A stretch of DNA of 24,835 bases, taken from the IMG/VR virus record IMGVR_UViG_3300025264_000106, positions 1 to 24,835 of that record; one strand, written 5' to 3'. The stretch is from a virus. Each line of letters begins with the position of its first letter. The first letter of the stretch is position 1. The position numbers and the translations under genes are program-made. Shown one piece after another: positions 195 to 22,541 of the stretch. The notes beneath the pieces were generated by a model. It was not told the origin of the DNA, made no database searches, and saw nothing but the letters and a program-made list of their open reading frames with translations.

Positions 195-213
195 GCAAAC
201 ACAGGAGATAAAT

Positions 214-1008: not shown

Positions 1009-1020
1009 GAGGTATATACC

Positions 1021-1464: not shown

Positions 1465-1475
1465 TTTGTGATAGC

Positions 1476-2579: not shown

Positions 2580-2585
2580 ACTTTT

Positions 2586-4672: not shown

Positions 4673-5930
4673 AAACTATACAGACTTTATACAAGCATCA
4701 GCAGATGCTATCAAAGGCAGTCCAATACCTAAACCTTTTGCACAGTGGAGTGCATTGAGTGCTGTAGCTGGAGCCATGGGTAGACGTGTGTGGTACTCAA
4801 TGGCTAACTATGATATTAGATCTAATAACTTTATAGTTTTAATTGCACCACCTGGTAGAAACAAGTCAGTAAGTTTGATTTTACCATTCACAAAAGTATT
4901 CAGCAGACTAACGACACCAGTAGGTACTACTGAAGATGATCAGAACTTTAACTCTGGATTAGATCAGTATGGCTTACGTAATTATCCTTTGTATGTAGTA
5001 CAAGATAGAATCACACCAGAAAAATTAGCAGTAGACATGACTAAGATTACTAGATTGGATCTGCGTCTATCTACTCCTGCAATGGATGAGTTCTATGATT
5101 CATCTGTGACTTTAGTAACATCAGAGTTTGGTACATTTATGGGCAGACATGAAAGATATCTGCAAATGTTTATGACAGATATGTGGGATTCTAAGGCTGA
5201 GTACAGCCACAAGACTAAGACATCTGGCGAATACATAATTAAAGGGCCTTGTCTTAATTGGCTAGCTTGTGCTACACCAGAACAATTTGTAGATAATTTA
5301 CCAGAAGATGCACGATCTCAAGGACTGTTATCTCGTATGTTGCCTATCTATTATGATGGTGATCGCATACCTCAATCATTAGTACAAGAAAGAGTTAGCG
5401 ACAATACAGTCAATAATTTGCGTGAGGATTTAGCAGACATAGCTAAGATGTATGGGCCAATGACTTTTGATGAAGATGCATTTAAGATTGTTGATGAAGA
5501 CATCAAGGCTGGTATACCACCAGAGCCTACTGATAATCATCTATCAGAGTATGTGCAACGTAGAGTATCTCACTTCATTAAGATTGCTATTGCAGTATCT
5601 GCTTCACGTAGAAGCACTCGTAAGATTATGTTAGAAGACTGGGAGTTTACAAAAGAATTATTATTTGCGGCAGAGAAACAAATGCCTAAAGCTTTAGAAG
5701 GTTTTGGTATGGGAAGAACAGGCCGTATTGCACATGATATGGTAACGTGGTTACATGGTACACTATTTAATAATGGCAGAAGTCATATGCTTTTGAAATT
5801 ATTTAAAAGAGAATTGCTACGAAAGATTCCAAATCCTGGTGAGTTAGAACAAACCATCAAGGCTATGGAAGATTCTGGTTATATAAAAGTCGAAGGGAAT
5901 GTGGTTTTTCCATGTCGAAAAGACGCTTAG
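4665..5930 (+). CDS. DUF3987-like replicative helicase / ATPase
   Basis: A 421-aa ATPase resembling the phage DUF3987 helicase group, which unwinds DNA ahead of the phage polymerase. Visible features are an N-terminal helical segment with WSALSAVAGAMGRRVWY, a Walker A-like APPGRNKS (residues 61-68) in which the first Gly is replaced by Ala, a Walker B-like VTSEFG with E154, the sensor-like LACATPEQF around 200-208, and GLLSRMLPIYYD around 220-231, whose R224 may be an arginine finger. The C-terminal 80 residues look like a winged-helix region. No primase motifs are visible, so primase is either elsewhere or absent. The start overlaps the polymerase stop by 8 nt, a sign of coupling. Confidence 0.75.
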   Translation: MSRNYTDFIQASADAIKGSPIPKPFAQWSALSAVAGAMGRRVWYSMANYDIRSNNFIVLIAPPGRNKSVSLILPFTKVFSRLTTPVGTTEDDQNFNSGLDQYGLRNYPLYVVQDRITPEKLAVDMTKITRLDLRLSTPAMDEFYDSSVTLVTSEFGTFMGRHERYLQMFMTDMWDSKAEYSHKTKTSGEYIIKGPCLNWLACATPEQFVDNLPEDARSQGLLSRMLPIYYDGDRIPQSLVQERVSDNTVNNLREDLADIAKMYGPMTFDEDAFKIVDEDIKAGIPPEPTDNHLSEYVQRRVSHFIKIAIAVSASRRSTRKIMLEDWEFTKELLFAAEKQMPKALEGFGMGRTGRIAHDMVTWLHGTLFNNGRSHMLLKLFKRELLRKIPNPGELEQTIKAMEDSGYIKVEGNVVFPCRKDA

Positions 5931-6394
5931 TAATCAGTAAGTTGCGATGGGCGAAAGCTCTCGATGAACGTCCTGTGTTCATACCCTCTCCAAGGTTAAC
6001 AGGCGTGAAGAGAGCTGGCGTACTTTATGAAAACAGAGTAGCTAACTATATGAAAGCTATCTATGGTGCGGAGAATGTATTGCATGGACAATGGTATCAG
6101 TATGAAGACAGAAGAGGAGTAGGTTACTGCCAATCTGACATATTAATTTTACCACATGGAGATGTAAAGGATTTGATTATATTAGAATGTAAATTAAAAT
6201 CTAGAAAAGTAGCAGAGGTACAGCTTCGTTATCTATATAGGCCTATAGTACAACACCTATATCCAGATACTAATATAATAATGGTACAAGTATGTAAGTT
6301 TTTAAATCCTAAAACAAAAGGAGTTATTATAGATGAGCTAGATGACATCTATAAGCAAGACTTATCTACATTATATTTAAGGACATTTGCATAA
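5912..6394 (+). CDS. PD-(D/E)XK nuclease
   Basis: A 160-aa nuclease-like protein. The core is a beta-strand with SDILIL (D76), followed 16 residues later by LIILECKLK (E92, K94), which gives the D-x(n)-ExK signature of the PD-(D/E)XK fold. A conserved helix (VQLRYLYRPIVQHLYP) and a strand (NIIMVQVCKF) follow. RecB-like nucleases, VRR-NUC proteins and Holliday-junction resolvases share this core. In a phage replication operon, processing of recombination or replication intermediates is the most likely role. It overlaps the helicase gene by 19 nt and has only a weak ribosome binding site, so it is probably translated by coupling. The subfamily cannot be assigned from sequence alone. Confidence 0.75.
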   Translation: MSKRRLVISKLRWAKALDERPVFIPSPRLTGVKRAGVLYENRVANYMKAIYGAENVLHGQWYQYEDRRGVGYCQSDILILPHGDVKDLIILECKLKSRKVAEVQLRYLYRPIVQHLYPDTNIIMVQVCKFLNPKTKGVIIDELDDIYKQDLSTLYLRTFA

Positions 6395-6399
6395 TGTTG

Positions 6400-6428
6400 T
6401 GGACAGATCTTCACCAATATGTTATAAT
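6400..6428 (+). promoter_or_regulatory. sigma70-type promoter for the ribonucleotide reductase gene
   Basis: TGGACA (6400-6405) and a perfect TATAAT (6423-6428) with a 17-bp spacer lie in the 76-bp gap before the reductase gene. The 10 bp TGTTATAATG around the -10 is identical to that of the promoter at 166-194. The expected leader is about 36 nt and ends in AGAGGAA (6459-6465) before ATG 6471. Confidence 0.75.
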
Positions 6429-6470
6429 GTACTTTCATCACATTAACACAATCTAACTAGAGGAACTCTA

Positions 6471-8393
6471 ATGACCAATAATTATCTGCCTACTGAATAC
6501 CAACAATTTATACATACCTCTAGGTATGCACGTTTTATAGATGATGAAAAGAGAAGAGAGTCGTGGCCAGAAACTGTGACTCGTTATGTAGATTTTGTAG
6601 CAGATAACTTAGACAATAACTTTAAGTATAAATTAAATTCTAAAATAAAATCAGAACTAACCAACTCCATATTATCATTACAAGTCATGCCGTCAATGAG
6701 AGCATTGATGACTGCTGGGCCTGCATTAGATAGAGACCACACTGCTGGATATAATTGTAGTTACATTCCAATAGATCATGTTAGATCTTTTGATGAAGTT
6801 ATGTATATTCTTTTATGTGGTACAGGTGTAGGCTTTTCAGTAGAGCGTAGCAACATAGAGAAGTTGCCCACTATTGCAGAAGAGTTTGAAGAGAGTGATA
6901 CAATAATTGTAGTACAAGATAGTAAAGCAGGTTGGGCAAGATCGTTTAGAGAACTGATTGCTATGTTATACTCTGGACAAATTCCAAAGATAGATGTATC
7001 TCGTGTACGCCCTGCTGGTTCTAGACTAAAAACTTTTGGGGGCAGAGCTAGTGGTCCTCAACCTTTAATAAATTTATTTGAGTTTACAATTAAAACATTT
7101 AAGAATGCAATAGGTAGAAGACTTAACTCTTTAGAATGTCATGATGTTGTTTGTAAGGTAGGTGAGGTTGTAGTAGTAGGGGGCGTAAGAAGATCTGCTT
7201 TAATATCTCTTAGTAACTTACAAGATGATCGAATGCGCGGAGCTAAGACTGGTCAATGGTGGATAGATGAAGGCCAACGTGCCCTCTCTAATAACTCAGC
7301 GGCCTATACTTCTAAGCCAGATATGTCAGTATTTATTAATGAGTGGAAGAGTTTATATGATTCTAAGTCTGGTGAGCGGGGCATTTTTAATAGGCAAGCC
7401 GCCAAAAATAAAGCATCTGAGAATGGTAGAAGAGATATTGAATGGGACTTTGGTACTAACCCTTGCTCAGAAATTATACTACGACCATATCAATTCTGTA
7501 ATCTTACAGAGGTAGTTATCCGTGCAACTGATAGTGAGAAAGATCTCTTAGCTAAAGTAAGAGCCGCAACTATACTTGGCACATTTCAATCTACCTTTAC
7601 TGATTTTAAATATCTACGTAAACAATGGATACAGAATACAGAGGAAGAAAGATTGTTAGGTGTATCACTAACAGGTATTATGGACAATCAACTTACTAGT
7701 AATCCTAAGAAAGAATTCTTGATGCGTCTACGCAAAGAAGCAGTTGATACTAATAAAGAGTTTGCTAAGAAGTTAGGCATACCACAATCTACAGCCATCA
7801 CTTGTGTTAAACCATCTGGTACTGTTAGTCAATTAGTTGATAGTGCTTCTGGTATTCATAGCAGACACAGTCAATACTATATACGTACAGTACGTGGCGA
7901 TAAGAAAGATCCTTTAACAACCTTAATGATTGAGAAAGGTATGCCACATGAACCAGATATAACTAAACCAGATTCAGTAGTTGTGTTTTCTTTTCCTATG
8001 AAAGCACCAGATGGTTGTATAACTAGAAATGATTTAACAGCTATCGATCAATTAGAAACGTGGCTAATGTATCAAAGATATTGGTGTGAACACAAACCTT
8101 CGTGCACAGTATCAGTGAGAGAACATGAGTGGTTAGATGTAGGCGCTTGGGTATACAAATATTTTGATGAGATATCTGGTGTTAGTTTCTTGCCACATTC
8201 TGAACACGTTTATCAACAAGCACCATACCAAGATATTAATAGAGAGGAATATCTTGAAGCAATTAAATCGATGCCACAAAATATAGATTGGGCAGAACTA
8301 AGCAACTATGAAGAGGAAGACAATACAACGGGATCACAGGAGTTAGCCTGCAGTTCTGGAGTATGTGAAATAGTTGACATATCGTCAAATTAA
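6471..8393 (+). CDS. class II (adenosylcobalamin-dependent) ribonucleotide reductase
   Basis: A 640-aa monomeric class II ribonucleotide reductase, which reduces ribonucleotides to deoxyribonucleotides using adenosylcobalamin as the radical source. All five key cysteines of the Lactobacillus leichmannii enzyme have counterparts: NCSY (C96, for C119), NPCSE (C332 and E334, for C408 and E410), QFC (C343, with the same 11-residue spacing as C408-C419), and the C-terminal CSSGVC pair (C627, C632, for C731 and C736). GTGVGFSVE and TCVKPSGTVSQL are further family signatures. It is about 100 residues shorter than the 739-aa reference, typical of compact phage versions. It has its own promoter and ribosome binding site, so it can be expressed apart from the replication operon. 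A host able to make or import B12 is implied. Confidence 0.93.
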   Translation: MTNNYLPTEYQQFIHTSRYARFIDDEKRRESWPETVTRYVDFVADNLDNNFKYKLNSKIKSELTNSILSLQVMPSMRALMTAGPALDRDHTAGYNCSYIPIDHVRSFDEVMYILLCGTGVGFSVERSNIEKLPTIAEEFEESDTIIVVQDSKAGWARSFRELIAMLYSGQIPKIDVSRVRPAGSRLKTFGGRASGPQPLINLFEFTIKTFKNAIGRRLNSLECHDVVCKVGEVVVVGGVRRSALISLSNLQDDRMRGAKTGQWWIDEGQRALSNNSAAYTSKPDMSVFINEWKSLYDSKSGERGIFNRQAAKNKASENGRRDIEWDFGTNPCSEIILRPYQFCNLTEVVIRATDSEKDLLAKVRAATILGTFQSTFTDFKYLRKQWIQNTEEERLLGVSLTGIMDNQLTSNPKKEFLMRLRKEAVDTNKEFAKKLGIPQSTAITCVKPSGTVSQLVDSASGIHSRHSQYYIRTVRGDKKDPLTTLMIEKGMPHEPDITKPDSVVVFSFPMKAPDGCITRNDLTAIDQLETWLMYQRYWCEHKPSCTVSVREHEWLDVGAWVYKYFDEISGVSFLPHSEHVYQQAPYQDINREEYLEAIKSMPQNIDWAELSNYEEEDNTTGSQELACSSGVCEIVDISSN

Positions 8394-8900: not shown

Positions 8901-10130
8901 ATGATAGACAAAATACAAGAAGCAGTTAATGCAGTAGTGCTAGCCAAAGGTAATAAAGCAGAAGCGGCAAAGAACTTAGGCATACCACGTACTACATTAC
9001 TAGGCAGATTAGATACAGCAGAACGAGAAGGCATTGCACCAAATGTAAATGCCCCCGATACTGCGGCGGCCTTAGTAGAGCAAAAGATTCTATATGATAT
9101 GCAAATATCAGAGCTAAAGAAACAAGTAAAAGAACTGGCTTTAGATAATATTACAGCAGAACAAATAAGAAAGACAGTATTTAAACTACACAATCGTAAT
9201 GCTAAACCACCTAAGTGGTTAAAGAAAAGTTCTCCAGCACACGGAGCACCTGGTGTACCTACATTATTCTTATCTGATTTACATTGGGGTGAGGTAGTTA
9301 ATCCAGATGAGGTTAACAATTTAAACTCATACGATAGAGCTATAGCTAAGGCTAGACTTAAATCTACTATAGAATCTACTATAGATTTATGTACTAATCA
9401 CATGGTCAATCCTAAGTATCCTGGCATTGTTCTATGTTTAGGTGGAGACATGATATCTGGACACATACACGAAGAACTTGCAGAAACGAATGATGGTACT
9501 AACATTGAGCACGTATTAGAATTGTTCGATCATCTAACATGGGCAATCAATTCATTAGCAGATACTTTTGGTAGAGTATTTGTACCTTGTGCTTTTGGTA
9601 ATCACGGCAGAATGTTTAGACAATATAGACACAAACAAGCAGCGGCTACTAGCTTTGACTGGATGCTATACACTATGCTTGAGAAACATTACACTAATGC
9701 TAAAGACAATAGAGTACAATTTCAAATACCTTTTGGCTTTGATGCTTACTACAAAATATATGATGTTAATTATTTATTAACACATGGTGATAGGCTAGGA
9801 GTTAAGGGGGGCAGTGGAGTAGTTGGCATGTTAGGACCGATTGCTAGAGGAGTTGCTAAGGTAAAGAACGAATATGCTACACACAAGAAGCCGATTGATT
9901 ATGTTATCATGGGACATTGGCATCAGTATTTATCTTTAAAAGGTATCATCGTTAATGGATCTCTTAAAGGTTATGATGAGTATGCAATGAGTAACAGGTT
10001 TTCTTTTGAAGAGCCACGCCAAGCCTTATGGTTTACACACCCTAAGTATGGTATAACTTTCCAATTACCTGTAATTTCTGAACAAACACTAGCAAAAAAG
10101 CCAAAATCTGAGTGGGTACAATGGAACTAA
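8901..10130 (+). CDS. metallophosphoesterase with N-terminal helix-turn-helix
   Basis: A 409-aa calcineurin-like metallophosphoesterase. The full metal-binding set is visible: SDLHWGE (D126, H128), GGD (D183), GNH (N234, H235), THGD (H295) and GHWHQ (H339, H341). Residues about 6-38 resemble a Fis-type helix-turn-helix (AAKNLGIPRTTLLGRL). A short coiled coil (about 50-100) links the two, and a basic stretch precedes the catalytic core. Related phage proteins are annotated as phosphoesterases or DNA repair exonucleases, but the substrate is unknown. The DNA-binding N-terminus suggests a nucleic acid target or a regulatory role. AGGAGAAC lies close upstream of ATG 8901. The gene follows the 127-aa gene and probably shares its promoter. 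Confidence 0.88.
   Translation: MIDKIQEAVNAVVLAKGNKAEAAKNLGIPRTTLLGRLDTAEREGIAPNVNAPDTAAALVEQKILYDMQISELKKQVKELALDNITAEQIRKTVFKLHNRNAKPPKWLKKSSPAHGAPGVPTLFLSDLHWGEVVNPDEVNNLNSYDRAIAKARLKSTIESTIDLCTNHMVNPKYPGIVLCLGGDMISGHIHEELAETNDGTNIEHVLELFDHLTWAINSLADTFGRVFVPCAFGNHGRMFRQYRHKQAAATSFDWMLYTMLEKHYTNAKDNRVQFQIPFGFDAYYKIYDVNYLLTHGDRLGVKGGSGVVGMLGPIARGVAKVKNEYATHKKPIDYVIMGHWHQYLSLKGIIVNGSLKGYDEYAMSNRFSFEEPRQALWFTHPKYGITFQLPVISEQTLAKKPKSEWVQWN
9361..9384 (+). repeat. 12-bp perfect tandem duplication inside the phosphoesterase gene
   Basis: AATCTACTATAG occurs twice with no gap (9361-9372, 9373-9384). The length is a multiple of 3, so the reading frame is kept and the protein gains a repeated STIE/STID segment. 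This fits a slippage duplication in a helical linker before the GGD motif. Confidence 0.8.
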
Positions 10131-10134
10131 TACC

Positions 10135-10163
10135 TTGTAAGTGCCCCTTTTATTTGGTATAAT
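10135..10163 (+). promoter_or_regulatory. sigma70-type promoter before the small-gene cluster
   Basis: TTGTAA (10135-10140) and a perfect TATAAT (10158-10163) with a 17-bp spacer overlap a stretch just past the phosphoesterase stop. CCCC occupies spacer positions 4-7. The usual start, 7 nt past the -10, falls at about 10170, leaving only about 4 nt before ATG 10174. The AGGAG at 10164-10168 would then be outside this transcript and would work only on read-through mRNA. Confidence 0.65.
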
Positions 10164-10173
10164 AGGAGACTTT

Positions 10174-10332
10174 ATGAAAGACAACGAACAGACAGAAATA
10201 AAAAAAGGGTTTGATATTCCCTATCCAGAGTTTGATGCACCATCTGTAACAATAGGTGGCGATGCAGTAAAACTACCGGAAACAATAAAGAAACCCAAAG
10301 ACAACTGGGACAGTTCATACAATGATGATTAA
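10174..10332 (+). CDS. 52-aa hypothetical protein
   Basis: A 52-aa hydrophilic protein, rich in Lys, Asp and Pro, with no motif I recognise; it contains the segment GFDIPYPEFDAPSVTIGGD. The ATG at 10174 is preferred because AGGAG lies at 10164-10168, 5 nt upstream, and a -10 box abuts it. An in-frame GTG at 10141 lies upstream of the -10 box and is unlikely to be used. It is the first of a series of very short genes leading to the holin-like gene. Confidence 0.6.
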   Translation: MKDNEQTEIKKGFDIPYPEFDAPSVTIGGDAVKLPETIKKPKDNWDSSYNDD

Positions 10333-10343
10333 GAATAAATAAT

Positions 10344-10475
10344 ATGAGTCAATGTAAAAATTGTCAACACGGTTGTCATTGCTCGAACGGCTCAAGCTGT
10401 TCTAGTTGTGGCTGTCATAATTGTCAACATGAAGATAAAGAAGAATCTTTAACTGATAGTTGGAAAAAGATTTAA
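10344..10475 (+). CDS. 43-aa Cys/His-rich, metallothionein-like protein
   Basis: ATG 10344 to TAA 10473-10475 encodes 43 residues with 8 Cys (4, 7, 11, 13, 19, 22, 24, 27) and 4 His (9, 12, 25, 29) packed into residues 4-29. The Cys form CxxC (4-7, 19-22, 24-27) and CxC (11-13, 22-24) pairs, with NCQH repeated at 6-9 and 26-29. The C-terminal 14 residues are charged and Cys-free (EDKEESLTDSWKKI). Such density is typical of metallothioneins and small zinc-binding proteins, so metal binding is likely. The purpose is unknown: zinc or copper buffering, redox protection or partner binding are all possible. The ribosome binding site is weak. It lies 11 nt after the 52-aa gene and shares its transcript. 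Confidence 0.65.
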   Translation: MSQCKNCQHGCHCSNGSSCSSCGCHNCQHEDKEESLTDSWKKI

Positions 10476-10500
10476 CTAAGCAAGGACTAATCAACAATCA

Positions 10501-10614
10501 ATGTCAAAAGAAAAAAGTATAAGTTTTGCAGAATTAGCAAAGATGCTTAACAATAAAACTATTGGCGTTGTTAAAAAGAAAAGGAAAGCAAATGGAAAAA
10601 ATAAATCTAATTAA
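10501..10614 (+). CDS. 37-aa basic hypothetical protein
   Basis: ATG 10501 to TAA 10612-10614 encodes 37 residues. The N-terminal half could form a helix (ISFAELAKMLNNKT), and the C-terminal half is strongly basic (VVKKKRKANGKNKSN), which suggests binding to nucleic acid or membrane phosphates. The ribosome binding site AAGGA is distant (13 nt or more). The basic C-terminal coding bases also contain the ribosome binding site and start of the next gene, so part of the composition may reflect that overlap. Coding is plausible but not certain. Confidence 0.45.
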   Translation: MSKEKSISFAELAKMLNNKTIGVVKKKRKANGKNKSN

Positions 10615-10699
10615 AGACTGGTTTAATGGTCTTGATAAGAAAGTTAAAATTATAATTGCAGTAGGTATTGTGGTTATTATAGGAATCATTATAAACTAA
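10592..10699 (+). CDS. 35-aa single-pass membrane protein
   Basis: ATG 10592 to TAA 10697-10699 encodes 35 residues. After an N-terminal amphipathic segment (INLIKDWFNGLDKKVK), residues 20-34 are nearly all Ile/Val/Gly, forming one membrane span that ends at the C-terminus. AAGGA at 10580-10584 is well placed before the ATG. The stop overlaps the next ATG as TAATG (10697-10701), so translation is coupled to the holin-like gene. Its place suggests a lysis accessory or membrane-anchor role, though nothing in the sequence proves it. Confidence 0.65.
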   Translation: MEKINLIKDWFNGLDKKVKIIIAVGIVVIIGIIIN

Positions 10700-11136
10700 T
10701 GGGCATTCCATTCGAAATGATTACCATGCTTGGCTCCACTGTTCTCGGTGGAGTCATGAGCATATGGTCTCAAAACATAAAAGCTAAACAAGCTGAACAA
10801 AAAATGCTTTTAGCTAGATCTAAAATACAGACTGAGGCATTTAAAGAAGCAAGAGAATATGAGAACGTAGGATTCCAATGGACTAGAAGAATCATAGCAC
10901 TAACTGCTATCTTTGCTATCATAGTTCTCCCAAAAATATTACCACTAATAGACCCACAAGCACAAGTAATCGTAGGTTATCTAGAATTTAAACCTGGCTT
11001 TTTATTCCTTGAAGGCAAGGATGTTATGCAGTGGGTACCTATGGCTCATAGAGGTATAGTTATTACACCACTCGATACTAATTTAGTGGCGGCAATTACT
11101 GGTCTATACTTTGGTGGATCATTAGTAAAGAAATAA
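10699..11136 (+). CDS. holin-like membrane protein (putative 3-TM holin)
   Basis: A 145-aa protein with hydrophobic segments at about residues 6-24 (ITMLGSTVLGGVMSIW), 62-84 (WTRRIIALTAIFAIIVLPKIL) and 128-143 (LVAAITGLYFGGSLV). A charged helix (about 27-55) joins the first two. The WTRRIIAL boundary and the C-terminal GLYFGGSLVKK recall the three-span holin-like proteins of marine phages and gene transfer agents. Such proteins open the inner membrane at lysis. It directly follows a small membrane-protein gene (1-nt overlap) and precedes a coiled-coil gene. I see no separate endolysin in the window; the only peptidoglycan-lytic candidate is the N-terminus of the giant virion protein. The membrane topology is clear, the holin role inferred. 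Confidence 0.6.
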   Translation: MGIPFEMITMLGSTVLGGVMSIWSQNIKAKQAEQKMLLARSKIQTEAFKEAREYENVGFQWTRRIIALTAIFAIIVLPKILPLIDPQAQVIVGYLEFKPGFLFLEGKDVMQWVPMAHRGIVITPLDTNLVAAITGLYFGGSLVKK

Positions 11137-11163
11137 TTTTTAACAACCAACCAGGAGACTAAC

Positions 11164-11349
11164 ATGGAAGAAAAAATAACAGAAGAACAAATAGTTATGC
11201 AGGATTTAATTAATCAGCTTGCTGATAAAGATAGATCTATAGTAAACTACAGAGTTATTATTACACAGTTGAGAGCGCAACTAGCTGCACTACAAGCAGA
11301 AGACAAAGAGGTCGAAACTGTAGAAGATAAAAAGAAAAAAGAATCTTAA
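11164..11349 (+). CDS. 61-aa coiled-coil protein
   Basis: A 61-aa protein, mostly one amphipathic helix with heptad-like spacing (MQDLINQLADKDRSIVNYR, then ITQLRAQLAALQAEDKE), ending in a highly charged Lys/Glu tail. It has no signal or membrane segment. AGGAG at 11153-11157 lies 6 nt before the ATG. A soluble coiled-coil protein right after a holin-like gene could control lysis or join a virion complex, but neither is shown. Its stop (11347-11349) shares the TTAA with the stop of the opposing giant gene, and its 3' end forms one arm of a possible terminator. Confidence 0.75.
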   Translation: MEEKITEEQIVMQDLINQLADKDRSIVNYRVIITQLRAQLAALQAEDKEVETVEDKKKKES

Positions 11350-11378
11350 GAACCTAATCCAAGAGATTCTCTGTTTTT
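11331..11378. terminator. possible bidirectional terminator across the convergent gene ends
   Basis: AGAATCT (11340-11346) and AGATTCT (11364-11370) form a perfect 7-bp stem with a 17-nt loop. On the plus strand the stem is followed by CTG and TTTTT (11374-11378). On the minus strand it is followed by a run of T that corresponds to AAAAAA at 11335-11340. The flanking A and T runs can extend the stem imperfectly. The stem is weak in GC, so efficiency is uncertain, but the symmetry and location suit ending transcripts from both sides. Confidence 0.4.
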
Positions 11379-14300
11379 CATTTTCTCTTTTATATTTAAT
11401 TTATCTGAGCTATATATCCTTGCTTTAGGATTAGCTTGTTGTCTACCTTCTTCGAACAGTCTAGCTGTGTCAGGACGGTAGGCATACTTTCCATCCATCT
11501 TAGTATTAAACTTAATAACGTCTAAATTAATTTCACGTATTCTTTTATATGCATCTGCTGTTAAAGTAGGATCAAATGTAATATTCTCTGCCATATATAA
11601 ATCTCTGTATGCTTCTTTATATCTAGCATTAAATTGACGGTGTGCTTTTTCATGTTTCGTATCAATCATTCTTTCTCTGAATAAAGCTTCTCTTTCTTTA
11701 GCTACTTTATTAGAAGCAAAACCTAACGACTGTGCGATTAACTCTGGCACAGTTAAGTCTGCTGTTAGTAATGTACCTTTCCTAGTATCCGCATATCCTT
11801 CAGTCGGATATTTATATGCCCCTCTATAAAAGTTTTTAATAAACGAAGGAGCAGCTGCCATATAAAAATCTAAATCTTTTACTGCTTGTCCAAATCCTTG
11901 TTGACCTATCTTTTGAATCATCTGTTGTGGTATACCAATAGCAATAGCACCAGGAGCTCCAAATAATTCGTAAGGTTTAGCACCTGTTGGCATTCCTACA
12001 GTGCCTAGTATAGACCAGACTTGTTGCATACCAGGTAAATTTCCTAAAGTTATTCTTTGCTGTACAGATACTCCCATGTATGCTTCGAACATTCCATTCA
12101 TTATAAAGTCAGTAGTTTTAGGTCCTGTCACTTCTGTTAACATGTTTCTCATTTCAGTTCTTATATCTGTATTAAATCCTGCAAGTCTTAATAAAAATGC
12201 ACTAGCTCTGTCAAGATCATCACCACCTGGTATACCTAATACACCGCCAGTTAAAAACATCATTAACATTACTTTAGCAAATATAGCTCCGCCTGTTTTT
12301 CGGTTACCTTTAACAAATAAACTGTGTAACAATCCAAGCATTAGATTAACATAAGTTTGGAATAAGAAAGCTATTGAACCATATCCTCTCATAATTTTAG
12401 GACGATTAGTTTTGCTGTAGTTACCAAATGTTTCATCAATCATTAAGTCAGCAAACATAGCAGCTGTTGCAATACCACCTTCTCTAGCTTTTCTAGCATT
12501 CCAAATTTCATTGTATCCACTATAATATTCATCAGCTTTTCTTAGCATCTCTGGATCTGATGCTAATCTATATGAAGCAATCCAAGCAGCAGTACGTGAA
12601 AAAGTTTCAAAAGTATTAAAGACACCACTCATAATTCCTTGTTCAAATACTCTCCCTGCTTTTCTTACCGCACCACGTTTGCCTGGTATAATAGAAGCAT
12701 TAGGTGCTTGCCCTTTTTCTAAACCAGCTTGTCCAGGTCTAAGTGTTCCATTATTAAATCGTTCCTGTATTAATGCTTGCAAGTCTTTAGGAGCATTGCT
12801 TACATTCATAAACGTGTCACCATAATCTGACTCAACAATAGTCATCATCTTACGAGCCTCATGAAATGCTTTAGTTAATTGTACTGACGTTTTATAAGTT
12901 CCTGCAAATTGTGATAATATCGGACCAGTAAATTGTATTGCACTCATAGTCTGTAAAATACCAGAAGAGAAATTGCCCCCTAAAAACCACCAGAAACCCA
13001 TACGTCTTATACCAGAAAACTCATAGTTGTGGGCATCAGCTACACCGTAATCATACATACCTGTAATAGCTGCTCTTAATTTTGGTTTAGGACTTCTAGG
13101 ATTATCAGCATAATCTTTTGCCTTACCATAGTTTTTTGCAACCTCTTTAGACATACCATTACGTGCGGCAAAATCAGAAGCCATCAATCCGAACGCCATA
13201 ATACCATTCATGAAGTCACCGCTGTATCCATCTACACCACCTACTTCTCTTCTTGGAGTAATAAATTGATTAAAGCCTACAATTCTGCCCTCACTTACTG
13301 AAGAGTTTAATTCTTTAAGAAGTTCTTGAAACATCTTTCCTTTGTTGTCAGACATTCTAGCTGCTACTGCTTCTAATGCAGAAAAATCTTTAGGTGCTTC
13401 ATCATTAAACTTTTTAATAATGTCTTCGTTTAATTTAACTGTTGTTATTTCATACTTAGGATCAGCATATTTATCAGCAAACTTTCTTTCTATCTGTCTT
13501 ATTAAACCTGCAGTAGTATATCCTCTAAGTCTGTCCTCTGTTAATGGTGGCTCAACTAGTTCGTATGCAACTACTCGATCTTTACTAGTACGAGGTTTCG
13601 TAGTATCAACTACAGTAACTGCATTGTTTCCATATCTCATTAACGGTATGTAATCAAATCTTGTAAACTCAGCAGTTTGTTTAGCAACTTTTAAAGCATC
13701 GCTTAATCTTGTCTCTGCCCCTACAGTATCGTTACCAAGTAGTGCTTGTATTCTACCAGATGATTCTAAAGTCTCATCAAATACAGTTAACTCATTAAAA
13801 TTAAAGTTTAATACTTTAAGAGAATCATATATTTTTTGTATCTGTGGATACTCTAAGTTCATGATTTGATCTGGAGTTAAAGGAACTGCTGGATCAAAAC
13901 CTAAATCAGTTAAACTTTCTGGATAAGCAGTTGCTAACAAAGAAAGAGCTTGTTGAAAATCATCCATATGATGACCACTAATAGTCATCATTAAATTCTT
14001 TTTCATTACATCAACATTAGCTTTTATTATATCTTCATAAGCTTTGGCCGCATCTCCTTGTAAAGTTATAACCTCACCTTTTTGTATAGTATAACTATCA
14101 CCGTTTCTTCTATGTAATGTCTTAGATTCAGGAGCAACAAATGTTATGTTACCATTAGCGTCAGGACGATATTGTCCTGGAGAAGATTGTGAAATAGAAA
14201 ATGCTTTGTCTAAAAATACAGCGTCTTCACCTAGTAATTCATATATCATGAAAGCATCTTTAGTAGCTATTGCAAATTCAGATTGAAATTTTTGTGCAAG

Positions 14301-17300
14301 TTTTTGCATAAAATCTATACTGTTCCACATAGTAGAAACCACACCATACTTACGAGCAATAGTACTTAAGTTTGAAAACCATTTACCTAAATAACTTATG
14401 TCAGTTAAACTTATCTCACCTTCCATAGCAGAAAACTTTTCAGTAGCTTTAATAACTTTATCCATGTTTCTATTGTGCTCATTAAAATCTTGTCTGCTCA
14501 TTTTTTCATTGGTGCTTAAGAAATCATCCGCTATTGCTATCTCGATTGGCCCATCTGCTGATGCATTATAATTTATATCACGCATGTCTGGATTGCCATT
14601 GCCATCAACTTGTTGCCATTGATTATTATTCCACACAATGTAAGAATCTTTTCTAGGATCGTGCCCTTCTATGCCTTCATAATTATTACGGTACACTATT
14701 CCGTCATAACCTTTTGCATTTATTAATACTTTAAGATACTCGTTAAACGCAATATCTCTTTCTTTTAAAGGCTTATCTTCAGTTTGTTTGTTTATTAAGT
14801 TACGAATAGCAGATGCTTCTTCTTTAGTAAATATTTGATCAACAAATAAACCAGGCCCGAAATCACCGTACTCCATTTTATCTGTTTTAATTGTTAAAGC
14901 ATTAAGCAATTTATCTGTGCCCCAATCATCTCCTAAGTCTCTCATTCTAAGAGGATTCTTCACATACAATACAGCAGCTATAGTATCCATGCCACCACCA
15001 AGTTCGTCATTAACTGTATCTGCACGTTCGTCTGCTTGAATAAATGAACCAAAATGATAACCAAAAGAATCATACGGTACACTTAGAGTGTTTCCTGCTA
15101 TTCCTATATATTTTTTAGAAGCTACTCTAAATCCTTTTCGTCTTATATTAGCAGCACTTGGAGAGTTGGTACCGTGATAAACAATGGCTGGACTACCTGC
15201 TACAGTTAAATCAGATTCAAGTGGTATGCTTGCACGTATACGCGCTAGTCTATTTCTGTAAAGTGCAATCGGTTGTATATCCAACTGCCCCCCTGCTTTC
15301 AACAGTAAGTTTCTAAACAATCTAGATGTTTCTATTTGAGCATTTGTTTGACTTGCTATTGCATATGATTGAGTGAAGTTCTCTAAAATTGTAGTTAAAT
15401 TTAAAACAGGAAAACTTTCGCCAGGACTTCTTTGTAAACTTTCTTGTATAGTGCTTTCATTGTTTTGCATGTAAGCAAAGATAGTATTTAAGGTTCTATC
15501 ATCTATATTTTCTAATTGTTGTAAGTAAGATTCTACTACTTCTAGATTTGGAATACCACTTACATTAGTTAATCCTTTAAATAAACCTGATATTTTTTGT
15601 AACATATCTTTTACTAGTGCACCTTCTTCACCTCTATAAGTATCTAAAGATCGCTCTCTTCTAAACAATTTATCGTCAACATACTCTTCCCATGCTTTGT
15701 ATAAGGCTTTGTTTTGTACAATATCACCACCTGTTTTACTACCAACTACAACTGTAGTTGATCCTTCTTTTCTATTTAAAAAATTAATAGCATCTTGTTC
15801 TGATATGTTAGCAGCTCGTGCTAAGTTAAGCGGTCCAAGTTTCATCAAATCTGCTTGATCTATTATTTCTTTTCTAGCTTTTAAAACACCATTGTCAAAA
15901 GATTCAAATATCTTATTGCTTTCTGTAAATCCATTAAAGCCTAAAGCATTAGCCAGCATTTTTAAATAAGTAGCAATACGTGCAAAGACTTTTCCCATAA
16001 CACCCTTAGGCTGAAACAGTGCGCCGTTTCTTGTAACAGTCATATACTCAGCAAACATATCTGCTATAGCTTCTTCCAACATGCCTTGTTCAGTCATGCC
16101 AGGTAAATCTGCGTAACGTTTCTTAATGTTATATCTTTTTACTCCAACTTCTCTTGCCACTTTAAGTAATGCTTGTTTTTCTTTTTGTGTCATTAAGTTA
16201 TCTAGAATGTAGTGCATTGATTCATGATACATGACAAAATTTCTAGAATATGCAGGATCAACTTTTCTGCCAGCTACCATAGGATTAGCATTGAGTGCAA
16301 CTTGAATTGCATTAGCACCTACTATAAATTTACCGTTTAATTGTGCGCCTTCTGCATTAAGAACTTTACTAAATAAATCAACAGACAAAGCATCTAGACC
16401 TAAACTATTTAATTCATTTTGCATTTGTTGTCTAATGATAGGTAAAGCATCTAACATCTCTTGAGTTAATGTGCCCCTGTCTATTGAGTTAGGATTTTCG
16501 TCCACACTCCAATAAGTTATTGTTTTCTTTTCTCTTACCTTTTCTTCATAACCAAATAACTTTTTACTAATTTTATTTATCTCTGGTGTAGTAGGTTTGC
16601 CTTTGTACCTATCCCAAAAAGTTATAGGCTCTACATCAAAACTTGCTAGCAATTCATTTAGTTCTGTACGTGCATCTTGTATTTCATCCAACATACTTTC
16701 AAAGTTTCTCACTTGTCTTACTGATTCCCTGTACTCACGTCTAGCGTTTTCTGGTAAAGATCTGTACTCACTTAAAGAAAGTTCAGGTTGCTGTATCTCA
16801 GATATAAATGCTTCTATCTGTTTTATAGCTGCAGAAGTGTAATTAAAATAAAAACCAGTGCCGCGCATTCTATTATCCGGAACTACATGTTCTCTTGAAG
16901 GTTTGTATGTTCTGATTAAAGTTTCGTATGCAGCTATTGCTGTAGCATCTTTTTCTTGTTTAGCAACCTTTAATCCATACTTATAGAAAGGTAGCATATT
17001 TCTTTTAAAACCATTGTTATCCATTCTATCTACAAGTTTTCTAATTCGTAATATTCTTGATAGAGGATGTGAAGAACTTCTAGCTCTTTCATACTTAGTT
17101 ATTTGTAAGTTTCTTATTCTTCTGTTTAAATTAATAACATCTTGTCTGTATGTTTCACTTGCAGGATCTAATTCTTTTTTATTTTCTTTAAGGGCAGCAA
17201 TCTCTTCATTACTTTTATCAAGATCAAATTTAAATAGCTTTTGTTCTTGAGTTAATGCTTCAGCTTCAGCAACTTTTCTTGGATCATTAGATCTTGCTAA

Positions 17301-20111
17301 CCCTTCAATTTGTTCGGTCCCTACAACCTCTGACGTTGTTCTTGTTTGGGGGGCTTGGTATTGGAAATCTTGTTCTAACCCTGTAAGTGTTGCTTCAGCA
17401 GCAGTAGGTGGTAGAGTTGTTGATCTTACAGCATTAGGTTCGTGTCTTACCCCGTTTTTAATTATTTCTTTTATACGAATTAGGCCGTTAGTTTCTTTGT
17501 TGCCCTTTTCAATATTAACATCTTTTTTTAATTGCTCAATAGTTGAAGCACCTATAGCTGGACTGCCATCTTCGTTTTCATTGAACCAACCTAGCTTTTC
17601 TAAAGCAGTTTCTTGTCGTTCAGTTAATGTGTTTTGATTACCTTCATTTTGTGAGAAATCATATATTTCAAAAGCATTGTTTCTTTTTAATATAGTTGCT
17701 GCTCTTTCTTTAAGCATCTCATCATTTAAAGTTTCTCCTTTGGAATTTTCAAACACTTTGTATTCATAAGGAATAACTTCATTGTCAGCTTTATAACTCT
17801 TGTAGTCATCTATCAATGCATCAATAGCAGTTTGTCCTGTCTCTAAGCCAAGATAAGTTTCTATGTTTTTAAAACCACGTTGCTTTAATTTCTTTGCTAT
17901 AGACTTTACATCTGGTTGACGTGCAGTATCTCTCTCAGTAGGTTTAGTAAATCTATTATCTATATCTTCTTTTGAAGCTCCTGCTGCTTCTTCTACAACC
18001 ATTTGTAATTTTGGTAAATGCTCTATAGGTATAAGAACACTAGCTATAAATGGTTTACCTTCTGTTTCAGTTTCATAAATCAATTGAACTGCTTTAGCTC
18101 CAGTGTCTTGTATTACTGTACCAGCAATAGTAAATTGTGTGGGAACTCTGTCACCTAGTGCAGTAGTATATGTTTCTAAACCAGTCTTTAATACTCGGTC
18201 ACCCATTTTAAAACCAGCTTTAGCTAGCTCTGGATCTTCAGTATTAAGTTTTGCTCCTGAAATAATAGCACCATCTACTGCTTTTGCTCGTTTAGCATTA
18301 CCAAAATAAGTAGCTGGACCAGTTATGACCCCACCTATTGCACCCCCAGCCATAGCACCAGCAGCTGCTGACTCACCTAATTCTTTTATAAATTCTTTAG
18401 AAGTATATAAATCCGATATTGATTCACCATCATTAAGCTGTGCTGCTGTTGAAGTAAGTGCAGTTTGTATGGCCTCTGTGACACCTTCTGAGCCTGCAGA
18501 CTTAGCAAAGCCTTTTGTTAATTCTTTTACTAAAGAGGGTTTAGTTACTCCTTGTTTAACTTTAGTTTTAGTTATGCCTTTTAGTACTTCTTTAGTAACT
18601 GCTTTTCCATACGTCTTGTTAAACGCATCAAACATAATACGGGGAGCACCTAAGTAGGATTCCACTGCACCATATGCAAGACCAGTAGTAAGTGACAACG
18701 CTGCATTAGCATCTCCATCTCTTGCAAAACCTTGGCTAGTTAACTGTTCCATCTGGGTTTCTCCTATTCCCATAGAAGTACCAACTAAAAATATACCTGG
18801 TATAGGTGTACCAGTGGTAACTGTAGATGCAACACCAGCAAGGATTGCCGGTATCATAGTAGCAGCACCTGAGCCTGTAGTATTACCAGCCCATTCTAAG
18901 AAAGCAGACAGCTTGTTTTCATCTGCTAACATTTGTTCTAATGTGACTACTCGTTCTTCTAATGGCGCGTCTGTAGTCTCCCCGTATTTAAATCTGTAAG
19001 CAGATTGATCTAAGTTGTATTGGTCAATTAATGTTTTAGTATATTGATCTAATTGTTCATTACCAAATGTATCTGCTGCTGCGTTTATCAAACCAGCTCC
19101 CATGCTTTTTACACTAGTTATGCCTTTCTTAAATCCAGAAGTAAGAGCCCAGTCATCTAAGTTATCAGGATCTTTAGCATTGACTGGTTCCAATCCGTAG
19201 GTATAGTAGTAACCTTTATTAGCCATTTGCATGGCCGCATCTTGAGATTTTAAATATTCTCTAGTTTGATCATCATTAAATTCTGCAGGTACTTCTATTA
19301 AAGGAGTATTAGCATCTTTAAAAGATATGTATTTTACTTTACGTTTTTCTTTTGGTTCTATCAGTTGGCTGATGTCATAACCAAATGGTCCTTGGGATTG
19401 GACTGGTTGCTGTGAAGAAGGTGGTGCTTCGCTCATTGCTTTAAGTCTGGCAGCAGCCTCTTCAGCTCTTTCACTTAAGTTTAAAAATTGTCCATCATCT
19501 CCAAGTAAACTATTAGGAATGACAGTACCGCTTTGTTCAGGTACTATTATCTCAGGACCATCTTCGCCCACAAGATAAGGTTTGCCAGACAAAACCGGCC
19601 CCCCTTCTTGACGTGCTTCAATACCAAATATATTAGAAATACGTTTATCTTTAGTGATGTCTTTAGATGTGTGATGAAATTGTTCATATAGTTGTGCTGC
19701 AGATTTTTCGTTGCCTTCTAAGACTCCTTTAAAATATTTATCGGTTCCAACTTGTTGATACAAATTAGCCAACATAACATCTTCTTGTTGTTTAGGTGTC
19801 AATTTATTAGGGTCGTTGTGTTTCTTAGCTTTTACAACCCAATCAGGTATAGAACCCATTCTATTATACATAGTAGCTGTTCTATTTAACCCTGTTTGAA
19901 ATGCATTCCCTTCACCTTTGGTTAGGAATTGATAGATACCTCGAGCAGAACTTATATCACTCACAATGTTTTTACCACCAGAGCTTTCTACTTGTGCTAC
20001 ATCTTTTATAAATTTATCTAAATTGGAAAGATTGCGAGCATTGTATATTGCTCCCAACATTGTGCGAATATCTTTTGGCCTTTTCATAGGCGTCTTTTTG
20101 GCATCAGCCAT
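11346..20111 (-). CDS. giant polyvalent virion protein (transglycosylase-like, zincin, ADP-ribosyltransferase-like, PLxRFG-type)
   Basis: A 2921-aa protein, the longest by far in the window. Residues 38-165 look like a lytic transglycosylase: QVESSGG (candidate catalytic E42) and SARGIYQF (55-62). GGPVLSGKPYLVGEDGPE at 170-187 is a motif of tape-measure and related phage proteins. Gly/Ala-rich hydrophobic stretches lie near 405-445 and 580-602. HESMH (1296-1300) with EEAIAD (1346-1351) is an HExxH zincin signature. VYHGT (H1646), GYHFGS and GYDGIVY...SYIVW (1801-1827) fit an ADP-ribosyltransferase fold. YIPLMRYG (P2156-G2161) matches the PLxRFG motif of giant phage polyvalent proteins. More hydrophobic segments lie near 2369-2400, 2574-2600 and 2605-2629. 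By analogy with T7 gp16 it is probably stored in the virion and ejected with DNA, making the cell-wall passage and modifying host targets. AAGGA precedes the ATG. Confidence 0.85.
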   Translation of the reverse strand: MADAKKTPMKRPKDIRTMLGAIYNARNLSNLDKFIKDVAQVESSGGKNIVSDISSARGIYQFLTKGEGNAFQTGLNRTATMYNRMGSIPDWVVKAKKHNDPNKLTPKQQEDVMLANLYQQVGTDKYFKGVLEGNEKSAAQLYEQFHHTSKDITKDKRISNIFGIEARQEGGPVLSGKPYLVGEDGPEIIVPEQSGTVIPNSLLGDDGQFLNLSERAEEAAARLKAMSEAPPSSQQPVQSQGPFGYDISQLIEPKEKRKVKYISFKDANTPLIEVPAEFNDDQTREYLKSQDAAMQMANKGYYYTYGLEPVNAKDPDNLDDWALTSGFKKGITSVKSMGAGLINAAADTFGNEQLDQYTKTLIDQYNLDQSAYRFKYGETTDAPLEERVVTLEQMLADENKLSAFLEWAGNTTGSGAATMIPAILAGVASTVTTGTPIPGIFLVGTSMGIGETQMEQLTSQGFARDGDANAALSLTTGLAYGAVESYLGAPRIMFDAFNKTYGKAVTKEVLKGITKTKVKQGVTKPSLVKELTKGFAKSAGSEGVTEAIQTALTSTAAQLNDGESISDLYTSKEFIKELGESAAAGAMAGGAIGGVITGPATYFGNAKRAKAVDGAIISGAKLNTEDPELAKAGFKMGDRVLKTGLETYTTALGDRVPTQFTIAGTVIQDTGAKAVQLIYETETEGKPFIASVLIPIEHLPKLQMVVEEAAGASKEDIDNRFTKPTERDTARQPDVKSIAKKLKQRGFKNIETYLGLETGQTAIDALIDDYKSYKADNEVIPYEYKVFENSKGETLNDEMLKERAATILKRNNAFEIYDFSQNEGNQNTLTERQETALEKLGWFNENEDGSPAIGASTIEQLKKDVNIEKGNKETNGLIRIKEIIKNGVRHEPNAVRSTTLPPTAAEATLTGLEQDFQYQAPQTRTTSEVVGTEQIEGLARSNDPRKVAEAEALTQEQKLFKFDLDKSNEEIAALKENKKELDPASETYRQDVINLNRRIRNLQITKYERARSSSHPLSRILRIRKLVDRMDNNGFKRNMLPFYKYGLKVAKQEKDATAIAAYETLIRTYKPSREHVVPDNRMRGTGFYFNYTSAAIKQIEAFISEIQQPELSLSEYRSLPENARREYRESVRQVRNFESMLDEIQDARTELNELLASFDVEPITFWDRYKGKPTTPEINKISKKLFGYEEKVREKKTITYWSVDENPNSIDRGTLTQEMLDALPIIRQQMQNELNSLGLDALSVDLFSKVLNAEGAQLNGKFIVGANAIQVALNANPMVAGRKVDPAYSRNFVMYHESMHYILDNLMTQKEKQALLKVAREVGVKRYNIKKRYADLPGMTEQGMLEEAIADMFAEYMTVTRNGALFQPKGVMGKVFARIATYLKMLANALGFNGFTESNKIFESFDNGVLKARKEIIDQADLMKLGPLNLARAANISEQDAINFLNRKEGSTTVVVGSKTGGDIVQNKALYKAWEEYVDDKLFRRERSLDTYRGEEGALVKDMLQKISGLFKGLTNVSGIPNLEVVESYLQQLENIDDRTLNTIFAYMQNNESTIQESLQRSPGESFPVLNLTTILENFTQSYAIASQTNAQIETSRLFRNLLLKAGGQLDIQPIALYRNRLARIRASIPLESDLTVAGSPAIVYHGTNSPSAANIRRKGFRVASKKYIGIAGNTLSVPYDSFGYHFGSFIQADERADTVNDELGGGMDTIAAVLYVKNPLRMRDLGDDWGTDKLLNALTIKTDKMEYGDFGPGLFVDQIFTKEEASAIRNLINKQTEDKPLKERDIAFNEYLKVLINAKGYDGIVYRNNYEGIEGHDPRKDSYIVWNNNQWQQVDGNGNPDMRDINYNASADGPIEIAIADDFLSTNEKMSRQDFNEHNRNMDKVIKATEKFSAMEGEISLTDISYLGKWFSNLSTIARKYGVVSTMWNSIDFMQKLAQKFQSEFAIATKDAFMIYELLGEDAVFLDKAFSISQSSPGQYRPDANGNITFVAPESKTLHRRNGDSYTIQKGEVITLQGDAAKAYEDIIKANVDVMKKNLMMTISGHHMDDFQQALSLLATAYPESLTDLGFDPAVPLTPDQIMNLEYPQIQKIYDSLKVLNFNFNELTVFDETLESSGRIQALLGNDTVGAETRLSDALKVAKQTAEFTRFDYIPLMRYGNNAVTVVDTTKPRTSKDRVVAYELVEPPLTEDRLRGYTTAGLIRQIERKFADKYADPKYEITTVKLNEDIIKKFNDEAPKDFSALEAVAARMSDNKGKMFQELLKELNSSVSEGRIVGFNQFITPRREVGGVDGYSGDFMNGIMAFGLMASDFAARNGMSKEVAKNYGKAKDYADNPRSPKPKLRAAITGMYDYGVADAHNYEFSGIRRMGFWWFLGGNFSSGILQTMSAIQFTGPILSQFAGTYKTSVQLTKAFHEARKMMTIVESDYGDTFMNVSNAPKDLQALIQERFNNGTLRPGQAGLEKGQAPNASIIPGKRGAVRKAGRVFEQGIMSGVFNTFETFSRTAAWIASYRLASDPEMLRKADEYYSGYNEIWNARKAREGGIATAAMFADLMIDETFGNYSKTNRPKIMRGYGSIAFLFQTYVNLMLGLLHSLFVKGNRKTGGAIFAKVMLMMFLTGGVLGIPGGDDLDRASAFLLRLAGFNTDIRTEMRNMLTEVTGPKTTDFIMNGMFEAYMGVSVQQRITLGNLPGMQQVWSILGTVGMPTGAKPYELFGAPGAIAIGIPQQMIQKIGQQGFGQAVKDLDFYMAAAPSFIKNFYRGAYKYPTEGYADTRKGTLLTADLTVPELIAQSLGFASNKVAKEREALFRERMIDTKHEKAHRQFNARYKEAYRDLYMAENITFDPTLTADAYKRIREINLDVIKFNTKMDGKYAYRPDTARLFEEGRQQANPKARIYSSDKLNIKEKMKNRESLGLGS

Positions 20112-21239: not shown

Positions 21240-22541
21240 TTACTTTCCAAACATGTTGTAGATATCTGCTATTTGACTAGCGTATCCTAAATATTTAGAG
21301 GTCTTACTTGGACTATCATATACTTCTGGTCTTGTGCTGTAACCACTATAAGGTTGTTGTGATATGACTCCACTTAAGAAGTTGAGTTGTTCTTTAGGAT
21401 AGTTTTGTTCTCTTAAGAAGTCAGCATAAGCTACATCCATAGCTTTTTGATCTATACCTTGTTGTAATCCAGCCACACCTAATTGACCAGCAACATCTGC
21501 TTGTCCAATTGCCTGTCTTCTTTGCGCTGCTGTAATTTGATCCATACCAAGTCCTCTTTGAGAATCTCCCAACATCCTAGTTGAATCCATTAACTGTCTT
21601 TGTTGTCCGCCTAGTTGACCTTGCAATGCCCCTAGTTGTCTCATCTCGCCAGTTGCTGATCTTGCTAAATTACCAGCTGCAGTTGTTTGTCCTGCTGCTT
21701 GTATTCTTGCTAGAGTTGCTTGGTTAGCTAAACCACCTGCTTGCGTTTGTGCTTGTGCTCCTTGAATTTGACGCTTACGTCCTTCTTGAGCTGCAGATAA
21801 TGCAGACTCATAAGCACTTGATAATCCTTTAGAATATAGATCGCCAATACCTTCTGTTTGTGTTCTTTGTTGCATGCCAGATAATATAGCAGAACGACTG
21901 CCACCAAAGCCACCAGACATAGCAGCTTTTGCTCCTAAATTAGTTTGTTGTCTAGCACCTTCTTCTCTAAATTTTCTAGCCGCTGCATCAATAACGTTAG
22001 TTGCATATGGATTCATAAAGCCTTGAATCTCAGCACCAGTAATGCCTTTTGCCCCTTGACCAGCTAAACCATAAGCTCCGCCAGCCATATTCATTGTACC
22101 TTGGGTAGCATCATAACCACCTTGAGCCATAGCTCTAGATCTTTGCGCCGCATCAAATGATGAGCCTAAAGTTCCAAGTGCCCCTGCTGCAGTTCCCATA
22201 CCTGCGCCTATATAACCTCCAGCTGTGCCTCCAAGTTGTCCAGCTGTTCCGTACATGCCACCTGCTTGACCTAATGTACCAATACCTACGTTAGCTCCAG
22301 CAACACCTTGTCCTGCATAACCTTGTTGTTGAGCTATTGCACGTTGTTGTGCCTCGCTTAGGCCTGCTACTCTTGGTCCGCCGTATGCTGTGTAATCTTC
22401 TGACGCTATACCTTTGGCTGCTTCAATTGCCCTAGCTGATGCATCAGTAATGTATTCAGGCATTGGAGACTCAGCGGTTTGTGTTTGACCTAAAGTCTGA
22501 TCACCACCGGAGCCTACTAAATAATCCCATATTGTTGCCAT
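21240..22541 (-). CDS. Gly/Ala/Gln-rich virion protein (putative ejection protein)
   Basis: A 433-aa protein of low complexity. Residues about 65-170 are mostly Gly, Ala, Thr and Gln with short repeating units (GTAGQLGGTAGGYIGAGMG). Residues 170-350 form long Ala/Gln/Arg-rich helices (IQGAQAQTQAGGLANQ). The C-terminal part has DFLREQNYPKEQLNFLSGVI and ends in a hydrophobic-aromatic segment (YASQIADIYNMFGK). I associate the FLREQNYPKEQL pattern with marine phage virion proteins. Its place ahead of the 354-aa and 2921-aa genes matches the gp14-like ejection protein in T7. AAGGA precedes the ATG. No enzyme motif is present. Confidence 0.65.
   Translation of the reverse strand: MATIWDYLVGSGGDQTLGQTQTAESPMPEYITDASARAIEAAKGIASEDYTAYGGPRVAGLSEAQQRAIAQQQGYAGQGVAGANVGIGTLGQAGGMYGTAGQLGGTAGGYIGAGMGTAAGALGTLGSSFDAAQRSRAMAQGGYDATQGTMNMAGGAYGLAGQGAKGITGAEIQGFMNPYATNVIDAAARKFREEGARQQTNLGAKAAMSGGFGGSRSAILSGMQQRTQTEGIGDLYSKGLSSAYESALSAAQEGRKRQIQGAQAQTQAGGLANQATLARIQAAGQTTAAGNLARSATGEMRQLGALQGQLGGQQRQLMDSTRMLGDSQRGLGMDQITAAQRRQAIGQADVAGQLGVAGLQQGIDQKAMDVAYADFLREQNYPKEQLNFLSGVISQQPYSGYSTRPEVYDSPSKTSKYLGYASQIADIYNMFGK

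Follow-up and report, generated by a model that had tools for sequence, protein, structure and literature searches.

The window analysed here, a virus record of 24,835 bases (IMGVR_UViG_3300025264_000106, positions 1-24,835), contains an open reading frame of 2921 codons on the minus strand (11346-20111, -), with AAGGAAACTAACA directly ahead of its ATG, and the question raised by this locus is what such a protein carries and which of its parts are exchanged between related phages. Full-length orthologues with 36-86% identity were found in independent contigs, and dN/dS was well below 1 in the alignable regions of divergent orthologue pairs; the reading frame, proposed in the original prediction as a single 2921-aa polypeptide, is thus a real gene. 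The closest relative was a longer contig (L001) with a copy 100% identical to that of the window. Contig L002 encodes a protein 83% identical overall and 86% identical outside the N-terminal cassette described below, partial copies were also among the nearest relatives, and the other full-length orthologues showed about 36-42% identity. An SLT-like region, a zincin-like module, an ADP-ribosyltransferase (ART) and a PLxRFG domain occur in this one polypeptide, which is the multi-domain make-up of phage-type polyvalent proteins. We regard the product, with good though not full confidence, as a polyvalent ejection protein in which a stable chassis carries replaceable entry and payload modules, and its source as a tailed marine phage. 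A polyvalent protein with wall-lysis, zincin and ART modules, as originally predicted, is the best reading, and its catalytic residues are kept in homologues.

The gene is the last in a virion block. Upstream of it lie a 354-aa gene, to which no function was assigned, and a 433-aa gene (21240-22541, -) resembling DNA ejection proteins (phrog_4287, E = 9.5e-6), and in L001 a tail spike gene and virion structural genes were found further upstream. The 2921-aa protein is therefore encoded among virion (late) genes. The podovirus portal (PF12236, P22_portal) and P22 coat families gave no match in the related contigs, and the PF12236 control was equally silent.

The main feature of the protein, on which the original prediction was silent, is the exchange of its N-terminal wall hydrolase (aa 1-169; 19605-20111, -). 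In the window this cassette matched Pfam SLT (PF01464) with E = 0.0069 (16.4 bits against a gathering cut-off of 21.3) and in L034 with E = 0.0017 (18.3 bits); because the score stays under the cut-off in both, the N-terminus is called SLT-like only. Residues E42, S43, G58, Q61 and F62 were invariant in seven relatives, and four of them (E42, S43, G58 and Q61) supply the catalytic Glu and the ES...GxxQ pattern of SLT transglycosylases, E42 being the likely catalytic acid. The cassette is also 44% identical to the C-terminus of HTVC203P gp47. The transglycosylase-like N-terminus named in the original prediction thus holds in its invariant residues, with a weak family match.

The SLT-like cassette is present in the window, L025, L034 and L036. 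L033 and L039 carry a GH24 phage lysozyme (E = 5e-14 for L033), and L038, whose start codon precedes the first ATG, carries a pesticin-type lysozyme (E = 1e-50). The cassette of L002, for which we coined the label P5-like, matches Gp29 of PDB 9vvp (E = 2e-11) and phrog_873, and the PHROGs matched by it are named endolysin and tail injection transglycosylase. Outside the cassette, L036 and L039 are 94% identical, L025 and L038 89%, and the window and L002 86%, and in each of these pairs the cassettes are unrelated; pairs with unrelated cassettes span 82-94% identity across the remainder of the protein. The reverse pattern was seen between the window and L025 (85% in the cassette, 40% elsewhere), and the GH24 cassettes of L033 and L039 are 87% identical against 46% elsewhere in the protein. 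The wall hydrolase is a swappable cassette, exchanged for unrelated hydrolases at the GGPV joint that follows it. In a more distant branch (L041, L043, L044, L045, L050 and L052) the cassette is absent, the protein starting at about the position that corresponds to residue 245-270; the wall step is therefore either dispensable in this protein or done by another. The principle of domain movement was already known, as the hydrolase domain moves between podophage ejection proteins (PMC8954989); what is new is that a single joint of one orthologous protein accommodates four hydrolases unrelated to one another. Exchange of unrelated hydrolases at a fixed joint is not described for polyvalent proteins in the available text of Iyer et al. 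(PMC5512222).

The joint (aa 170-203; 19503-19604, -), with the pattern GGPV..PYLVGE.GPE..GTVIPN and the sequence GGPVLSGKPYLVGEDGPE at aa 170-187, was identified as the site of cassette exchange from the shift in DNA identity in five pairs. When identity was followed in 15-base bins, it jumped at the GGP codon in pairs with unrelated cassettes; in pairs with a shared cassette, it persisted some 60-105 bases past the GGP codon and then fell. This gives the shared joint a length of about 30 codons and makes it the likely recombination site. This motif had been described as tape-measure-type. It is indeed present, but it is not specific to tape measures: the tape-measure match (phrog_5062) was weak and confined to residues 157-203, and the motif is shared by many large but unrelated phage ORFs (L110-L145), often near the C-terminus, as the element ARA.GGPV.AG.PYLVGE.GPE..P..SG.V.PN (at 744-751 in ORFs of about 920 aa). 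A tape-measure identity was rejected on these grounds. The recurrent element has the look of a joint, tag or processing site of general use in phage virion proteins. As a tentative extension that we hold to be rather doubtful, the GGPV joint could be a general docking and recombination element at which a conserved ejection chassis swaps unrelated hydrolases and, separately, a zincin-transferase payload; entry and takeover functions would then evolve as plug-in modules. The pairs described here are a natural case in which a wall-cutting part has been swapped for unrelated ones at one exact joint, with the remainder up to 94% identical, and they allow one to ask what cassette choice follows (for example, host wall chemistry) and what the GGPV joint does.

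Behind the joint, aa 260-640 (18192-19334, -) form a Gly/Ala-rich, weakly hydrophobic region (Kyte-Doolittle peak at 413-431) that is conserved across relatives, shows weak similarity to aa 95-328 of the 8P protein (E = 0.002) and is possibly a channel or scaffold part. The following region, aa 641-1214 (16470-18191, -), has no known domain and is kept in length, and partly in sequence, across relatives. It has a beta-rich start and then long helices (about aa 944-1160), which form a long bundle in the AF2 model (pLDDT near 90); no family match and no PDB fold match were obtained for it, and from the model it looks structural. Between the zincin and the ART, aa 1426-1632 (15216-15836, -) also have no known domain, and the second half diverges fast (53% aligned identity with L002 over 1551-1632). 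Residues 620-1290 and 1400-1640 had been singled out as possible sites of further effectors. None was recognised in 641-1214 or 1426-1632, and the interval 620-1290 takes in the N-terminal part of the zincin (about 1215-1425).

The zincin-like metallopeptidase module spans aa 1215-1425 (15837-16469, -). Its predicted zinc-binding and catalytic motif, HESMH (aa 1296-1300; 16212-16226, -), reads HE-x-M-H in 17 orthologues, and the likely third zinc ligand lies in the EE pair at aa 1346-1347 (16071-16076, -), of which E1347 is invariant and E1346 nearly so in the same 17 orthologues. In the 786-aa AF2 model (pTM 0.38) both motifs fall within predicted helices, so that the zincin arrangement of HExxH (H1296-E-x-x-H1300) followed by a downstream Glu in a second helix (E1346/E1347) was found; the sheet was of low confidence and was not built, and the zincin-containing model gave no PDB fold match. 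A profile of aa 1215-1425 matched the HExxH regions of proteins in L053, L105, L069 and L108 with E values of 3e-12 to 1.5e-31, as compared with a best E of 0.048 in shuffled controls (all > 0.04). As the L105 protein has helicase and methylase domains and the L069 protein has ART-PolyVal and LPD38, the module is part of the polyvalent network. The HExxH zincin of the original prediction accordingly stands by its conserved residues and shared profiles, and its fold was not confirmed by the model. The L053 protein (9857-17305, +) is a more distant relative, 20% identical overall, with zincin and PLxRFG parts. InPase and MuF_C Pfam matches among the set of relatives are probably those of L053 and suggest that other payload domains occur in the family.

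The ART (aa 1633-1850; 14562-15215, -) matched Pfam ART-PolyVal (PF18760) over aa 1639-1838 with E = 1.9e-4 and 22.6 bits, under the cut-off of 31.2 in the window. The family was present in all eight contigs searched, exceeded the Pfam cut-off in six of eight relatives' genomes, and was found in 14 of 18 homologues. H1646 of the YHGT motif (15174-15176, -) and H1686 of the G-x-H-F-G motif (15054-15056, -) were invariant in 17 orthologues, H1686 being common to other ART-PolyVal-type proteins as well. D1822 of the DSY motif (14646-14648, -), the likely catalytic acid, was D or E in the same 17, and Y1685 varied among orthologues, unlike the neighbouring H1686. The polyvalent proteins of Iyer et al. 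2017 (PMC5512222) are likewise giant and, in the available text, combine lysozyme-type, zincin and Tox-ART-HYD2-like ART domains, with a family active site of H in strand 1, Y in strand 2 and D in strand 5. The window protein has His rather than Tyr in strand 2, which reads as a variant of the published H-Y-D set with the signature H1646-H1686-D/E1822. The H-Y-E class originally assigned to this transferase was rejected, since the conserved set is H1646, H1686 and D/E1822 and Y1685 varies; the ART itself is borne out by the ART-PolyVal match and the modelled fold, with an H-H-D class. Dozens of other large ORFs in phage contigs show the YH[GSA]T / GxHFG / DSYI pattern; because these ORFs were retrieved by the GYDGIVY part of the pattern, that part does not count as independent evidence, whereas the two histidine motifs do.

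The AF2 model of aa 1630-1860 (pTM 0.71) has an ART-like fold, in that its Foldseek matches, though weak (E > 0.001, TM about 0.3), were mostly ART proteins, namely PARP-type ARTs and Tpt1, together with an ejectosome protein. That last protein was the top match: 9k3a_B from the pre-ejectosome of cyanophage A4 (E = 8e-3, probability 0.90), identified by sequence search as A-4L ORF27, with YHGT at 1425-1428 followed by GSGTYFSKSSQA. The likeness to this ejectosome protein consists of the fold match and the YHGT motif; no sequence-profile match to the window ART was found, and the strand-2 motif is GTYF rather than GxHFG. Through cyanophage A4, such an ART-like fold is tied to a solved ejectosome. 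In the Anabaena phage A-4L record (L109; 20116-25269, -), ORF27 is annotated as 'tail protein', the YHGT...GTYF region at aa 1425-1600 is unannotated, and Pfam sees no ART in the protein. A tblastn search with the ART region alone against phage records gave no match, and PDB sequence profiles gave no significant match for the ART, zincin, SLT or PLxRFG regions, AcrIF11 included in the case of the ART.

A protein that is mainly structural, or of a tape-measure or ejection type, and that keeps its zincin and ART folds for shape as inactive domains would agree with the weak phrog_5062 match of the GGPV motif, with the long helical regions of the model and with an ejectosome protein as the best fold match of the ART. 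We consider this quite improbable, as H1646, H1686, D/E1822, H1296, E1297 and H1300 are kept while the whole ART drops to 26-42% identity. The check for catalytic-residue loss proposed with the original prediction came out the same way, these residues being kept across homologues of 27-42% identity. Active modules on an ejection chassis remain the preferred reading.

The zincin and ART may also share an evolutionary history within the protein. Between the window and L002, dS was 0.6-1.8 (mostly > 0.9) over residues 1080-1850, and about 1-1.7 over most of 1080-1870, as against 0.05-0.5 in most flanking bins and 0.5-0.86 in neighbouring genes; because the flanks are closer than the neighbouring genes, either the central block or the flanks have been exchanged. 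In this one comparison the zincin-ART block (about 1080-1870) differs in ancestry from its flanks, and it appears to have been exchanged; the pair L024-L029 showed no rise in dS over the central block. The ART and the segment ahead of it are the least conserved parts, with dN/dS of 0.22-0.38 in divergent pairs, and the ART (0.22-0.29) evolves faster than the zincin (0.05-0.11), which is among the slowest-evolving parts of the protein. Positive selection on the ART was rejected, as dN/dS stayed below 0.4 in divergent pairs, the unalignable cassette being excluded.

These rates bear on what the two enzymes may do. The original prediction suggested that the zincin could disable host proteins, and an injected zincin that cleaves them would form a two-enzyme payload with the transferase. 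Its place in the same block as the ART, with dS departing from the flanks, would suit that role, and Iyer et al. allow an effector function in the available text (PMC5512222). We nevertheless judge it unlikely, given that the zincin is in the slowest-evolving class and the ART evolves faster, and that self-processing, the function favoured for such zincin domains in that text, is better precedented, as in phage P1 DdrB. Cutting of its own polypeptide is thus more likely than attack on the host. The transferase, in turn, might be an anti-defence enzyme that modifies a host immune protein in the manner of AcrIF11. Its H..H..D set is similar to the H-F-H-D residues described in AcrIF11Pae1 (PMC12421852), and exchange with faster divergence is compatible with an arms race; AcrIF11 is, however, a single-domain anti-CRISPR to which no homology of the window ART was detected, no PDB chain was matched in sequence, and positive selection is not indicated by the dN/dS of 0.22-0.29 in divergent pairs. 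An anti-defence role consequently seems improbable to us.

The C-terminal part of the protein (aa 2154-2837; 11601-13652, -) is a PLxRFG (tail-700) domain, matched by NCBIfam NF032893 with E = 2.3e-46 and 158.6 bits, above the curated cut-off of 100, and likewise in 18 of 18 homologues. The predicted PLxRFG-type motif was confirmed as PLMRYG (aa 2156-2161) at the start of this match. Of the several hydrophobic segments originally predicted, hydropathy analysis supported one as strong (2609-2627, inside this domain), and three further ones (413-431, 688-706 and 2577-2595) were weak. The PLxRFG block is homologous to that of giant 'DarB-like' or 'structural' proteins in F116/Hollowayvirus-type phages (H66 gp60, Epa33, 8P, Shewanella Y11 and Pseudoalteromonas Y7), which are often annotated as DarB-like antirestriction proteins and whose genes stand just before the holin and lysozyme genes; in both groups the gene is the last virion gene before the lysis genes. 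The F116-type proteins are larger, from 3372 aa in Y11 to 5145 aa in 8P. In Y11 and Y7, which were scanned with Pfam, ART-PolyVal lies about 300 residues ahead of the PLxRFG block; both carry ddrB-ParB and Y7 also a methylase and a helicase, domains that the window protein does not have. The N-terminal SLT cassette had no match in the F116-type PLxRFG proteins.

In the record of phage H66, the PLxRFG homologue is noted as 'verified by mass spectrometry' as a virion part. No other evidence for packaging is as strong, though it bears on a homologue and not on the window protein itself; the transferase domains thereby belong to a family of which one member is on record as a virion component. From this note and the gene position we infer that the protein is delivered into the host with the DNA. 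Wall hydrolases are common on tails, and NCBI names the PLxRFG model tail-700, as would be expected if the protein stayed tail-bound as a local wall-opening device, was not injected and had its C-terminal domains act at assembly. This seems very unlikely to us, as it is hard to see what an NAD-using domain would do outside the cell, and the P5-like cassette has Gp29 (9vvp) and a head-and-packaging PHROG among its relatives. Injection is therefore retained as the preferred reading.

In the mechanism we propose, synthesis of the protein would take place late, together with the virion proteins; the protein would be packaged into the particle and enter the cell along with the DNA. The N-terminal hydrolase cassette would open the peptidoglycan, and the conserved middle helices, hydrophobic stretches and PLxRFG region would make up the chassis that is packaged and translocated. 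Cleavage of the chain by the zincin probably frees domains, and ADP-ribosylation of host proteins by the transferase probably takes place within the first minutes; whether zincin processing of the protein sets the transferase free can now be asked. Recombination at the GGPV joint exchanges the wall-cutting cassette between related phages, and the block of zincin and transferase has apparently been exchanged too. T7 gp16 has an N-terminal transglycosylase of ~156 residues, an extended stretch and a large membrane/DNA-channel part (PMC8954989), and the window protein likewise starts with a transglycosylase-like domain followed by an extended stretch. No zincin or ART belongs to gp16 in that account, gp16-like proteins have 609-1337 aa as against 2921, and no sequence match between T7 gp16 and the window protein was found.

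Some other genes of the window were also inspected. After the polyvalent gene, on the opposite strand, lies a 145-aa gene (10699-11136, +) that matched only phrog_38283 (unknown function) and looks holin-like by sequence. The replication genes (193-8393, +) encode a Sak4-like annealing protein, SSB, primase and ribonucleotide reductase. The DNA polymerase is apparently split (1476-4672, +) into a 367-aa ORF, small ORFs and then a 522-aa polymerase; the latter matches phrog_17 only from about position 798, and the second half of the 367-aa ORF, read from its sequence alone, is exonuclease-like. A scan of genome contigs seeking a host returned four loci, all of them other polyvalent-type proteins, and gave no host assignment. 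The polymerase is nearest to that of Caulobacter phage Kuura, at 35%, a weak hint at an alphaproteobacterial host.
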